From a candidate division WOR-3 bacterium (lineage in GTDB: Bacteria; Hydrothermota; Tepidihabitantia; Tepidihabitantales; CAIPLT01): 58,055 nt of DNA. Numbering within the stretch: the stretch's first letter is position 1; the number at the start of each line of letters is the position of its first letter. A program made the position numbers and the translations under genes. Of the stretch, positions 7,464 through 40,808 are shown piece by piece. Below the pieces are notes generated by a model, which was not told the origin of the DNA, searched no databases, and saw only the letters and a program-made list of their open reading frames with translations. Location: NCBI GenBank assembly GCA_026418155.1, contig JAOABV010000002.1, positions 11,493 to 69,547 of the forward strand, given 5' to 3'.

Positions 7464-7471
7464 AGACTTTG

Positions 7472-7499
7472 ATTATATTTTAGAAACAATTAAAATCAA
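7472..7499 (-). promoter_or_regulatory. Putative promoter for the DMT permease, leaderless
   Basis: On the minus strand -35 TTGATT (7494-7499), a 16-base spacer and a perfect -10 TATAAT (7472-7477). The ATG at 7463 begins eight bases after the -10 box, so the transcript should start at or one or two bases before the start codon. Confidence 0.55.
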
Positions 7500-8450
7500 G
7501 ACAATTTCTGAAAAAGTATTGTTCAAGAACACTATCTGCTAACCACGAACTGCGAGAAACATAGCGCAAGCATAACTGTGCTTCTCCTATAATCAATCTT
7601 TGGTAGAAATTGACCTTTGCATAAGGCTCAATCAAGAGAACTGTCGAGTACACAAATATTATTAAACCCCGAAAGCGCAAAACCTAAAAATTAATTTCCA
7701 ACGAAAATACTCAAACAGCAATATCGATAGTTTGTGTACACTGAAAATTCTCTCTTTTGACCATTTTTTGAGCATATCCCCTAGCCCCGGGCTAGGGTAG
7801 GGTTGGGTCTATCCTAACAAAATCCTAACATAAAAGTATGGCGGGATTATCTTGTATGAAGTAGATAAGGTCGCCTAAGGGTTAGTGGTTTATCTCCTTT
7901 ATTAACTTCTATTTTTAACTTGTTAGTCTTTCTAAATGCAGTGTGAGCAAATTGTCTTATAGTAAGCCAGCAAATTCTTATCTCAAGATGAATAGTGAAG
8001 TCGCTGGTATAATGTAGACAACTAAATCAAATAAGAAGAAAGTCAATATACTTGTCTTAAATAAAACCAACCCCATTAAAATCAAAATAATAGATATAAG
8101 AATTTTATCGTGGTGTTATTTTTTGTAGATTCAGATAACTCGATTTTTATTTGGGATTAAGCACATTTCTTTATTTATTGAACTATTTTTAACTTTCTAA
8201 AAAACTAACCATGAAAACACAAAAACAAACTTTTAGAGATGACTTTTAATGTCTTAAAATTTTCCTGTCTTCACAAGTTTCTACATAAACACTTGTTTTT
8301 CTGAGTATCTTCAAGAAAAGATAACTTCTATTGTACTTTTGCGATGAAACTTTGAAAAGTGTCTCTGAATTTACAAAAGATAAAGAATATTAATGATTTC
8401 TATATATGCTGTGATAAAAATTGGTTTATCAGAATTTCAACATCCTTATC
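7500..8450. other. AT-rich intergenic stretch with one GC-rich hairpin
   Basis: No plausible gene in either strand; the ORFs here have no family features. At 7779-7797 lies a perfect inverted repeat CCCTAGCCC-C-GGGCTAGGG inside very AT-rich DNA, followed by G-rich sequence to about 7808. A related hairpin occurs at 38944-38964. The rest is low-complexity AT-rich sequence. Confidence 0.5.
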
Positions 8451-8451
8451 C

Positions 8452-8481
8452 TTGACATCATACTTATTGTCTGGTTAAACT
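8452..8481 (+). promoter_or_regulatory. Putative promoter for the DUF523-DUF1722/uvsE pair
   Basis: Perfect -35 TTGACA (8452-8457), 18-base spacer, -10 TAAACT (8476-8481, four of six consensus). The ATG at 8488 is six bases past the -10 box and has no Shine-Dalgarno sequence, so the transcript would start at the start codon. Confidence 0.5.
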
Positions 8482-8487
8482 ATTGTT

Positions 8488-9456
8488 ATGAATAAATTTC
8501 CGAAACCCAATGTAGTAGTCAGTAAATGTCTTGGTTTTGCTAAATGTCGTTATAATGGCGATATGATACTTGATTATGTCGTTGAAAAATTAAAACCTTA
8601 TGTTAATTATATACCAGTATGTCCAGAAGTTGAAATTGGTTTGGGTGTTCCTCGAGACCCAATTCGAGTTGTTATGTATAGGGGTAATTTACATCTCTAT
8701 CAACCAGCAACTAACCGCGATGTCACCAAAGAAATGGTATCATTTGTTGATAAATATCTCAGTTCTTTATCTGAGATTGATGGCTTTATCCTAAAATACC
8801 GTTCACCGTCATGTGGCATAAATAGTGTGAAAGTGTATCAGAGTTTTCATCCTGAGGCGCGTTCTTCTCCTGGCGCAGGCTTTTTTGGTAAAGAAGTTCT
8901 ACAACGATTTAAGGGTTTAGCAATTGAAGATGAAGGAAGGTTAAAAAATTTCACTATCAGAGAATATTTTTTTACCCAATTGTTTACACTGGCTCAATTT
9001 CGTCAAACGAAAAAGACAAAACAAATGAAAGAATTAGTGCGATTTCACACTATTAACAAATTATTATTTATGGCGCACAGTCAAGTAAAATTAAGAGAAT
9101 TGGGTAAGATTGTAGCAAACCAATCCCGAATAAAAATTAATGCAGTTTTAGATGCTTATGAGAAAACTTTATATGAATTATTTAAAAAACCGCCGACATT
9201 CTCATCTTGGATTAATGTTTTGATGCATGCTTTTGGTGGAGTAAGCGATGAGTTGAGTAAACCGGAACGGAAATTCTTTTTAGATTTAATTGAAGAATAT
9301 CGTGATGAACGAATTCCATTAAGTGTTTTGACCAAAATCATTCAAAGTTGGGCCATGCGATTTGATAATCAATATTTATTAGAACAGACCTTCTTAAATC
9401 CATTTCCTAAGCAGTTAGTCGAAATTACTGACTCCGGCAAAGGTAGAAACCGATGA
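8488..9456 (+). CDS. DUF523 (TudS-like)-DUF1722 (YbgA-like) fusion protein
   Basis: 322 aa in two domains. Residues about 8-150 are DUF523: SKCLGFAKCRYNG (C14, C20), VCPEVEIGLGVPR (C45) and SPSCGI (C109). Three of these cysteines should hold a [4Fe-4S] cluster, as in the TudS thiouracil desulfidases of this family. Residues about 180-310 are DUF1722, beginning near LVRFHTINKLLFMAHSQ. The two-domain form is common in bacteria. It overlaps the UV-damage endonuclease gene by four bases (ATGA), implying translational coupling. In E. coli the DUF1722 gene ybgA lies next to photolyase phr, so a UV link recurs. Desulfidase activity is inferred from the family; the role of DUF1722 is unknown. Confidence 0.85.
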   Translation: MNKFPKPNVVVSKCLGFAKCRYNGDMILDYVVEKLKPYVNYIPVCPEVEIGLGVPRDPIRVVMYRGNLHLYQPATNRDVTKEMVSFVDKYLSSLSEIDGFILKYRSPSCGINSVKVYQSFHPEARSSPGAGFFGKEVLQRFKGLAIEDEGRLKNFTIREYFFTQLFTLAQFRQTKKTKQMKELVRFHTINKLLFMAHSQVKLRELGKIVANQSRIKINAVLDAYEKTLYELFKKPPTFSSWINVLMHAFGGVSDELSKPERKFFLDLIEEYRDERIPLSVLTKIIQSWAMRFDNQYLLEQTFLNPFPKQLVEITDSGKGRNR

Positions 9457-10331
9457 GAATTGGTTACCCTTGTATTAATCGGTCAATTGGCTGCACTGCC
9501 AACACTACTTTTCGGCTGGCATCTTATTCGGAAAAAAATCTGAAAGAAAAAGTTGCAAATAATTTAAATTGTCTTGAGCAGATATTGAAATATAATGTCG
9601 CCCATAATCTATTATTTTTCCGCCTCAGTTCCGATATTGTGCCGTTTGCTTCTCATCCGATTTGCACTTTTAATTGGCAGAAATATTTCCAGAACCGATT
9701 TGCGGAAATTGGTAAATTTATTAAACGACACAGGATGCGTATCTCGATGCATCCAGACCAGTTCGTTTTGATTAATTCCCCAAACCAAGATGTTGTGCAA
9801 AGTAGTATCAGAGAATTAATCTATCATTGTGAAATATTAGACCTGTTAGAACTTAATTATACGGCAAAAGTTCAAATTCATATTGGCGGTGTATACAAAG
9901 ATAAGACCTCGGCAACAATACGATTTATTAATGAATATAAAAAATTACCTCAAATAATTAAGCATCGTCTGGTGATTGAAAATGACCATATCTCTTATAC
10001 TCTTAAAGATTGTCTTTTCGTCCATAATGAAATTGGCATTCCGGTTTTATTTGATTCCTTCCACCACGAATGCTTAAATAATCAAGAGACAATAAGGCAG
10101 GCGATGTTATTAGCAAATAAGACCTGGGCTAAAAAAGATGGAGTCTTAATGGTTGATTATAGCAGTCAAAAGCCCAAAGCAACTAAAGGCACGCATAGCG
10201 AACATATCAATTTGCGCCATTTTACTAAATTTATTCAGGAGACGAAAGATATCAAATATGACCTTATGCTGGAAATAAAAGATAAAGAAAAATCAGCAAT
10301 AAAGGCAATTAGATTAATCAAAAATTCATAG
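9453..10331 (+). CDS. uvsE: UV-damage endonuclease (UVDE)
   Basis: TIM-barrel, metal-dependent endonuclease that nicks DNA 5' of UV photoproducts, starting an alternative excision repair independent of UvrABC. The 292-aa protein begins RIGYPCINRSIGC. It carries the metal/active-site blocks SMHPDQFVLINSP (about 109-121), IHIGG, IENDH, LFDSFHHE and MLEIKDKE near the end. Length matches bacterial UvsE (about 290-320). The start overlaps the stop of the DUF523-DUF1722 gene, so both come from one mRNA. It is convergent with the solute-binding protein gene. Confidence 0.93.
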   Translation: MRIGYPCINRSIGCTANTTFRLASYSEKNLKEKVANNLNCLEQILKYNVAHNLLFFRLSSDIVPFASHPICTFNWQKYFQNRFAEIGKFIKRHRMRISMHPDQFVLINSPNQDVVQSSIRELIYHCEILDLLELNYTAKVQIHIGGVYKDKTSATIRFINEYKKLPQIIKHRLVIENDHISYTLKDCLFVHNEIGIPVLFDSFHHECLNNQETIRQAMLLANKTWAKKDGVLMVDYSSQKPKATKGTHSEHINLRHFTKFIQETKDIKYDLMLEIKDKEKSAIKAIRLIKNS

Positions 10332-38594: not shown

Positions 38595-39690
38595 GCTTAA
38601 TTATACAAAAATTGACGAAGATGTCAAGATAAATCATTGAATTTTTTACATTACATACTATATGTGGTGTTTTTAATATTATGATACTATATATAGAAGA
38701 TTAAATCTAATCAAAGTCGGTTTACTATATCAAGGTTTGATGATTTTTAGGGATAATAAGGTAAATCCTTTTAATTATTATATAGAACTTTATCCAAATA
38801 TTATTTAGTTATCCGAATATTATTTAGTTATAAAAGAATTATTAACACAGAATTCTACTAAAGCATCTTTCATTGCAAGACGCGATATTTCCGGATTTTC
38901 ATTAGACTCTATGTCGAGTTTCTGAATGTTCAGCAAAGTAGAAGGGCTAGGGTGGGGCTAGCCCAAGCCAGACTATTTCCCAGCTCATCGCATATAGTAT
39001 TTTACCCTATAAGCGGAATATGAGGTTGCCTACCAGTTAGCCTAAATCGTGTAGCAAAATCTCTTGAAGTTTGTATTTCAATCTGTAAAAAACAGATATT
39101 CTTTTAATACTTTCCCAAATGTTTGCTTACTTATTTATAAGACCGCCTTTGAAATAACTTAAAACGTAATCTGACAGAAAATCTAATATCAGTTCAGATA
39201 GCAATCTTATTAGAACACTTTGCTTTACAATGGATTATAAGTTAGATAAGGAACTTTTCAAGTAGAGACTTTGAACATTTAAGCAGGTCGGACCTGATAG
39301 GGTTGGAGTTAGACTTTAGTTAAACCATCTGGCTTGAGGAAAAAACCGTTATTATTACCAATTCCACTCCCTTGATAATAGAGGTTAGGTGAAAGTGATT
39401 ATGAACATTTACTACTGCTTTTGTTCACTTCTATCCAGAAAAGGAAATTATGTACTTAATCTTAACCTTTTGAACAATTTACCGTTTGTTTGCATTTGCG
39501 ATTCGTCACTGTTATTAAGCAAGTCTGGCATAGTATCAGCTTTTAACATTAAACTTTTGAACATTTAACATTAGGTGACATTGAAATCAAGTAGGTCCGG
39601 CTTAGTAATTACCACATTCTATTTTTGCTCCTTAATTTTTAGTTCTTAATTTATTTTATTACCACTAATCTTTCAATTATTCTTTTCTCT
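38595..39690. other. Gene-free AT-rich stretch with GC-rich palindromes
   Basis: No coding region recognised. 38944-38964 forms a GGGCTAG/CTAGCCC hairpin with a G-rich loop, similar to the hairpin at 7779-7797. The 80 bases following both sites also look alike (a GAGGTTGCCTA block against AAGGTCGCCTA). 39285-39297 is the short palindrome CAGGTCGGACCTG. TTTGAACATTTAA occurs near 39267 and 39552, so diverged repeats are present. Confidence 0.45.
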
Positions 39691-40510
39691 TCAGTTTGGA
39701 GCGTATAGAAAATATACGCCTGAAGATAGTTCTTTGGTATTCAAATTTAGATTGTGAGTGCCGGTTTTCTTTTCTTCTTTACATAAAACTTTGATTAACT
39801 TTCCTGCATTATCATAGAGTATCGAAATTATTTTTGGTCAGCTATTAATTCAATGAACAATGTGGTTTGTATCTTGCAAGGATTAGGGAAAATAAATAGT
39901 TCCAGTGCCGGCGAAACCGGTTTAGGCTTTTTGGGTTCTTTTATTTCTATGGCAGAAGCAATTGGTTGAAGTCACATATACATCACATCATAGACTTGTG
40001 GATTAAAACTCATTTCACGCGAGCAGACCAAATCAACACCATTTCGTGTTACAGGATGAGATAATTGGGGAATGCCTGACAAATTCGGGTCGTTAGTTAA
40101 ATTCATAACAGGAGACCACTATACGCTGTTGAATGTCCAATTGAAAATATCGTCCAATTTATCCAGTTAATCTTTCCTACTAAACAACATAAACATTGTC
40201 TGAAGAGTAACAAACCACATTGGGACGGATTGAAAGAGTGTTCGAGTTTCTGATGTATTAATGGGATAACTTCTCCCATTTGTGTCGGTATAACAAAGAT
40301 AATATATCTCACTGTGAGATATCTCCTGAGACCATTAGATAATACACAATGTATACGATTTTGGGTGTCAACAGTCAGAACGACATCACCTTCTTCTTCA
40401 ATTTGCCAACCTAAATGATATTGGAGTGAACATATAAGGTTATCGTACTCTTATGTTGTATAGGCGTAAATTCCGATTAAAATCGCCTCTCGGGAGTAAG
40501 TAATTAATGA
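39691..40510 (-). pseudogene. Decayed secreted protein gene with FlgD/sorting-type C-terminus
   Basis: Read on the minus strand in several frames: GDVVLTVDTQNRIHCVLSNG, then RPNVVCYSSDNVYVV, then NLTNDPNLSGIPQLSHPVTR, NGVDLVCSREMSFNPQVYDV with a TGA, then SPALELFIFPNPCKIQTTL. After a frameshift come ISILYDNAGKLIKVLCKEE and LSSGVYFLYAPN before TGA at 39691-39693. The end is a clear FlgD-like/type IX sorting-type domain. The middle resembles surface proteins with repeated PNVV-x-DNVYVV segments. At least three stops or shifts make it non-functional; the upstream limit is approximate. Confidence 0.8.
40304..40322. repeat. Perfect 19-bp palindrome inside the pseudogene
   Basis: ATATCTCAC-T-GTGAGATAT: nine-base arms around one central base, perfectly symmetric. 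It lies between two coding fragments of the decayed gene and could be an insertion scar or a protein-binding site. Confidence 0.5.
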
Positions 40511-40808
40511 AGAAGTTTTTAATATTAGACTAATAAGACAAACCGCTGCTAACCTCTTTATGAGTATATTAGTCATTTGAGTAGATTAACAATGAGCGCT
40601 AATATTTACAGAAATGATATTTGTTATGATAAGAATGAGATAAGAAAAGACTCTGACTCTACTGGAAACTTTCATATTTTAAGTTTAATAACCAATTATA
40701 TTTCTTATATTTCTATCTATAGTTAGGCTTAGGAGACCCCTATTGATATTGTCCACACTAAAAAAATCATAATGAATATTATTATCAAAGATTGCTGGGA
40801 TTTTTGAT

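Follow-up and report, generated by a model that had tools for sequence, protein, structure and literature searches.

The RudS-UvsE Gene Pair and Its Surroundings

Two genes on the forward strand of the 58,055-nucleotide stretch of WOR-3 DNA analyzed here (the window) are so closely spaced that the start codon of the second overlaps the stop codon of the first. The upstream gene encodes a TudS (DUF523) domain joined to DUF1722, a fusion that was named RudS in 2024 (Jamontas et al.; PMC11417400), and the downstream gene encodes a UV-damage endonuclease, UvsE. The features of the locus are as follows:

8452..8481, + strand: candidate sigma-70-type promoter for rudS and uvsE, TTGACA-18-TAAACT, a 10/12 match to consensus
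8488..9456, + strand: rudS, TudS(DUF523)-DUF1722 fusion of 322 aa (Pfam PF04463 and PF08349), predicted tRNA 4-thiouridine (s4U) desulfidase
8512..8934, + strand: TudS catalytic domain, aa 9-149 (PF04463, 2.5e-36)
9058..9408, + strand: DUF1722 domain, aa 191-307 (PF08349, 2.7e-40), predicted to bind the tRNA anticodon arm
9430..9453, + strand: C-terminal tail DSGKGRNR of RudS, conserved in this WOR-3 RudS group (alignment A1) and disordered in the model
9453..9456, + strand: ATGA stop-start overlap of rudS and uvsE, exactly four bases
9453..10331, + strand: uvsE, UV-damage endonuclease of 292 aa (PF03851, TIGR00629; aligned with 3tc3 and 2j6v)

The ATGA at 9453-9456 bears out the four-base overlap described in the first-pass annotation, and equivalent NTGA overlaps occur in the WOR-3 relatives G002, G005, G034, G009, and others. 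By our ORF call, one other pair of same-strand neighbors overlaps in the window, most being spaced apart. The suggestion that both genes share one promoter fared less well. The candidate site ends six bases 5' of the first ATG of rudS, and the sequence CCTTGACAT upstream of RudS is also found in the same-family relative G002 at nearly the same distance, but 17 promoter-type sites were found in this AT-rich window against 14.3 expected by chance, so that matches of this class are no commoner than chance. A single promoter for rudS and uvsE is for that reason only plausible, the recurrence in G002 notwithstanding. No LitR-type gene or light-responsive regulator lies beside the pair, and the window holds no Rfam element or tRNA. 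Two long stretches without a credible ORF, at 7464-8487 (1.0 kb, 31% GC) and 38595-40808 (2.2 kb), likewise gave no Rfam match.

Domain Structure and Active Site of RudS

The arrangement by which RudS proteins are recognized, a TudS domain fused N-terminal to DUF1722, is found in the window protein, which also keeps the cluster cysteines C14, C45, and C109 and the catalytic residues E47, R56, S106, and S108. These positions are invariant in alignment A1, in RudS of Thermus thermophilus (RudS_TT), and in RudS_vir, and they correspond to C17, C49, C114, E51, R60, S111, and S113 of RudS_KT; mutating each such cluster or catalytic residue abolished RudS activity (PMC11417400). The window protein is alike to RudS_TT, the nearest of the tested members, in domain order, Fe-S cysteines, and the catalytic Glu/Arg/Ser/Ser set, with 40% identity over the full length, but differs from the published RudS systems in its setting, since the partners in those are photolyase, LitR, and carotenoid genes in place of UvsE, and in belonging to a genome without ThiI and bearing the additional DSGKGR tail. 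An AlphaFold2 model of the window protein (pLDDT 92.4) retrieved TudS crystal structures in a Foldseek search (best 6z96, E = 1.7e-6, TM-score by target 0.73), whereas a phmmer search of PDB sequences gave no match, the likeness to TudS having come from the fold search. TudS 6z96 shares the fold of the N-terminal half, but lacks DUF1722 and acts on 4-thio-UMP.

A role for DUF1722 at the anticodon arm has been proposed from docking and mutants (PMC11417400). The anticodon-contact residues Ser243 and Arg244 of RudS_KT are replaced in the window group; because they are also missing from the active RudS_TT, they are no requirement for RudS membership, and this contact is best regarded as a feature of one member, RudS_KT, rather than one shown family-wide. 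The DSGKGR tail is strongly conserved in this WOR-3 group and absent from the other RudS proteins compared, and residues 315-322 of the window protein fall below a pLDDT of 50. It is not merely a by-product of the gene overlap, as it is kept where no UvsE overlaps it.

The biochemistry of the fusion has been described in some detail. All six RudS proteins tested, including the Thermus orthologue, were active, lowering tRNA s4U by 4.7- to 26-fold in Escherichia coli and leaving 2-thiocytidine unaffected, and with the Pseudomonas putida protein the UVA growth delay went from about 105 to about 60 min; YbgA did not lower tRNA s4U (PMC11417400). In tRNA, s4U is the classical chromophore for near-UV light, which crosslinks s4U8 to C13, so that uncharged tRNA builds up and growth stalls (PMC11417400). 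Thiouracil-type substrates had been put forward for the DUF523 domain in the first-pass annotation; this holds for stand-alone TudS, which prefers 4-thio-UMP and showed no activity on a synthetic mini-tRNA, but the demonstrated substrate of RudS is s4U in tRNA (PMC11417400). With its catalytic residues intact, the window protein is predicted from its sequence to be a tRNA s4U desulfidase.

Source of 4-Thiouridine

An eraser of this kind would need a supply of s4U. A search of 66 genomes, 65 from the window's class plus one other, found no THUMP domain, and just three of the 100 WOR-3 genomes, none of them in that class, have a full ThiI. Matches to PF02568 within the class could not be accepted as ThiI, as MnmA, ORFs of GMP-synthetase size, and PP-loop-NFACT-R proteins are among them. 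The window's genome does encode a full MnmA and, separately, a 357-aa PP-loop protein with NFACT-R_2 at its C-terminus:

G000:C6:19306-20379 (locus L142:507-1580), - strand: PP-loop ATPase-NFACT-R_2 fusion, candidate alternative s4U synthase

This protein is not a member of ThiI, having NFACT-R_2 instead of THUMP and scoring 22 bits to PF02568, nor is it a missing MnmA, since full MnmA is encoded in its own and in most ThiI-less bacterial genomes. The family carries an invariant CxxC...C triad, its third Cys far from the other two, as in Fe-S-dependent tRNA thiolases, and Burroughs and Aravind reportedly predicted in 2014 that NFACT-R/ThiI-like fusions take part in RNA thiolation.

The distribution of the fusion was followed in 50 RudS-bearing genomes from a wide range of phyla, chosen by RudS similarity, for which the statistics ignore kinship. 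ThiI is present in 29 of these (truncated at a contig end in one) and missing in 21. Of the 21 ThiI-less genomes, 16 have an unequivocal PP-loop-NFACT-R_2 protein and one more (G116) an ambiguous one, compared with 1 of the 29 that have ThiI (Fisher p = 3e-7 with 15/21 and 1e-8 with 17/21); all four ThiI-less genomes in which it was not found are MAGs. Cultured RudS species without ThiI include Desulfoluna butyratoxydans and Thermodesulfobacterium hveragerdense. Most of the bacterial genomes, whether with ThiI or without, encode a full MnmA. Within WOR-3 the fusion is not specific to RudS genomes, as one would predict for a writer enzyme when its eraser is patchily distributed. This replacement pattern marks PP-loop-NFACT-R_2 as a candidate functional replacement for ThiI, and it seems reasonably likely that RudS-bearing bacteria and archaea without ThiI make s4U with it, WOR-3 combining this putative writer with an eraser/repair operon of RudS and UvsE.

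Were RudS in the ThiI-less WOR-3 bacteria to act instead on some other thiolated molecule, be it a product of another tRNA thiolation or part of thio-UMP salvage, and UvsE to be its neighbor in general nucleotide damage metabolism, the missing THUMP domain, the lack of full ThiI in the class, the 4-thio-UMP preference of stand-alone TudS, and the replaced anticodon-contact residues would all be accounted for. We consider this unlikely, however, as tRNA s4U fell with six of six RudS proteins, among them the Thermus one that is without those residues, while 2-thiocytidine did not, and as the candidate s4U synthase takes the place of ThiI in RudS genomes with MnmA alongside. Removal of s4U from tRNA is the function preferred here for RudS.

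UvsE

The uvsE product matches UvdE (PF03851) at 3.7e-66 and 223.6 bits, exceeds the curated cut-off of TIGR00629 (205 against 124), and matches the solved UvsE structures 3tc3 and 2j6v. Invariant columns of its alignment (A2) are H68, H100, H143, E176, D201, H204, D235, H248, and E274, the individual His, Asp, and Glu residues of which, aligned to 3tc3, we take to form the metal site. Belonging to the same family as these structures and sharing their putative metal-site residues, the window protein is unremarkable, only its operon partner being unusual. It is predicted by this homology to incise beside UV photoproducts; enzymes of this kind also cut at abasic and other lesions. Elsewhere in WOR-3, UvsE of G034 (L230:5209-6375) bears some 85 extra C-terminal residues that are absent from the other aligned UvsE proteins, and G053 encodes, besides a shortened UvsE adjoining RudS, a second one far from RudS (G053:C1:415707 and G053:C1:2248868), the two being near-identical where aligned.

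Linkage of RudS With UvsE in WOR-3

Among 100 WOR-3 genomes related to that of the window, DUF1722 was found above the cut-off in 42, UvdE in 27, and both in 25 (Fisher p = 2e-10), DUF1722 thus being present in 25 of the 27 UvsE genomes compared with 42 of 100 overall. RudS and UvsE are adjacent in 20 of the 25 co-carrying genomes, which is far beyond chance, some of the 5 non-adjacent cases possibly being contig breaks. RudS comes first in 19 of the adjacent pairs, and the gaps are mostly -4 to +9 nt; in G075 an interrupted UvsE lies upstream of RudS. The adjacent pairs come from 12 genera in six families, their RudS proteins being as little as 36% identical, and a test at genus level of DUF1722 with either repair gene, UvsE or photolyase, gave p = 2e-8. 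Across the pairs, RudS distances are correlated with those of UvsE (Mantel rho 0.61, 0 of 2000 permutations), close relatives contributing to this figure. On well-supported branches of the RudS tree the "UvsE partner" label changes at least eight times, which is likely too high a figure because contig cuts account for some of the "no partner" rows, and 12 of the 42 DUF1722-bearing genomes have neither UvsE nor a PF00875 photolyase, a number that contig ends perhaps explain in part. Fusion of the two genes into a single ORF was considered and rejected, as long frames (e.g., 446 aa in G021) result from read-through upstream and no fused protein was found.

Photolyase Partners and Loci Outside WOR-3

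Photolyase (PF00875) was found at a strong score in 11 of the 100 WOR-3 genomes, the window's genome being without it. Ten of these 11 carry DUF1722, eight have both genes within about 8 kb, and in G007, G010, G012, and G079 the ORF of RudS overlaps that of photolyase. Both partners can occur together: at locus L148 of G005 a class II photolyase converges on the RudS-UvsE pair, and in G047 (L218) the genes for TspO, RudS, UvsE, RibD_C, a zinc dehydrogenase (ADH), PTPS, a glycosyltransferase (GT), and photolyase follow one another on one strand, a cluster repeated in G045 (L217) minus UvsE. The RibD_C and PTPS genes of these clusters suggest synthesis of a flavin or pterin chromophore. In ten WOR-3 genomes and one Gemmatimonadota the gene immediately upstream of RudS is that for TspO, and the phr-tspO locus of Mycobacterium kansasii is light-induced about 30-fold (PMC9861118).

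The position of DUF1722 (YbgA) beside photolyase in E. coli, mentioned in the first-pass annotation, is confirmed, ybgA and phr adjoining with an overlap of four bases. As in the window, a DUF1722 gene there overlaps a UV-repair gene by four bases; YbgA, however, is without a TudS domain, and the repair is by a light-driven photolyase. RudS genes beside photolyase and in light-responsive operons have already been reported (PMC11417400). Photolyase is the commonest neighbor family among 80 RudS loci of many phyla, and in 15 of 76 non-WOR-3 loci it is no more than about 5 kb from RudS, for which we estimate a chance expectation well below 1% in a 3.5 Mb genome. UvsE is present in 13 of the 50 sampled RudS genomes and near RudS in three of these 13: in Methanosaeta with an NTGA-type overlap, in a Lokiarchaeon at 1 kb on the opposite strand, and in a Bathyarchaeon beside a degenerate RudS. 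Pairing with UvsE is no general trait of the Methanosarcinia (0 of 30 loci). As UvsE linkage is rare elsewhere, while that of RudS with photolyase is general and published, the RudS-UvsE operon is for the most part peculiar to WOR-3. In the bathyarchaeotal genome (G117) the RudS-like gene (L173:346-1329, - strand) is divergent from UvsE, and two of its three cluster cysteines are replaced by Tyr and Ser; it is possibly a non-catalytic tRNA-binding paralogue, and the same genome has another RudS near photolyase.

A response of the pair to oxidative or general DNA-damage stress, and not to light, would sit well with the many RudS-UvsE genomes, the window's included, that are without a PF00875 photolyase, with the breadth of lesions cut by UvsE, and with the largely subsurface habitats of WOR-3, many of them dark sediments. 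The presence of photolyase, which functions only with light, in the same clusters or overlapping RudS in related families, and the long-established standing of s4U as a near-UV chromophore, make this improbable, a little more so than action on another thiolated substrate. Mere history, with the genes inherited or transferred together and sharing no function, is very unlikely: pairing is concentrated in one phylum and the Methanosaeta pair is isolated within its class, but linkage persists across six families at RudS identities down to 36%, the presence of the two gene families is strongly correlated, and the tree shows repeated changes of partner label, even if contig ends produce some of the "no partner" labels.

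A Probable Light and UV-Damage Module

It is probable, and somewhat more so than the origin proposed above for s4U across ThiI-less lineages, that RudS and UvsE form a light/UV-damage module in which s4U probably comes from PP-loop-NFACT-R_2 in place of ThiI. RudS, by way of a three-cysteine [4Fe-4S] cluster, would desulfurize s4U at position 8 of tRNA, preventing the near-UV s4U8-C13 crosslink and the resulting stall of tRNA charging and translation, while UvsE would nick DNA beside UV photoproducts and thereby start light-independent excision repair. Translational coupling would yield both proteins from one message and in step, perhaps upon induction by light, and so make translation possible during genome repair. 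The repair partner appears to be exchangeable in WOR-3, being UvsE in most families, photolyase in others, and both in some.

The first-pass annotation inferred a genuine role of DUF1722 in the UV response. This is supported: the counts beside both uvsE and phr, which at background level would have refuted it, lie far above background, and the published effects of RudS agree (PMC11417400), although the core of the idea had largely been published in 2024. New are UvsE as a conserved, exchangeable operon partner of RudS in WOR-3 and the candidate for ThiI replacement; a literature search of incomplete coverage found no joint mention of RudS with UvsE or of NFACT with ThiI. If the proposed writer is real, it would account for groups A and B of the 2024 paper, in which RudS occurs without ThiI, and a loose end of that work, the maker of s4U in RudS organisms without ThiI, becomes testable. 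The WOR-3 operons provide a phylum-scale case of a tRNA-modification eraser coupled to the repair of DNA photodamage, with its partner swapped between UvsE and photolyase, and so lend weight to the view that photoprotection of tRNA and repair of DNA belong to a single response.
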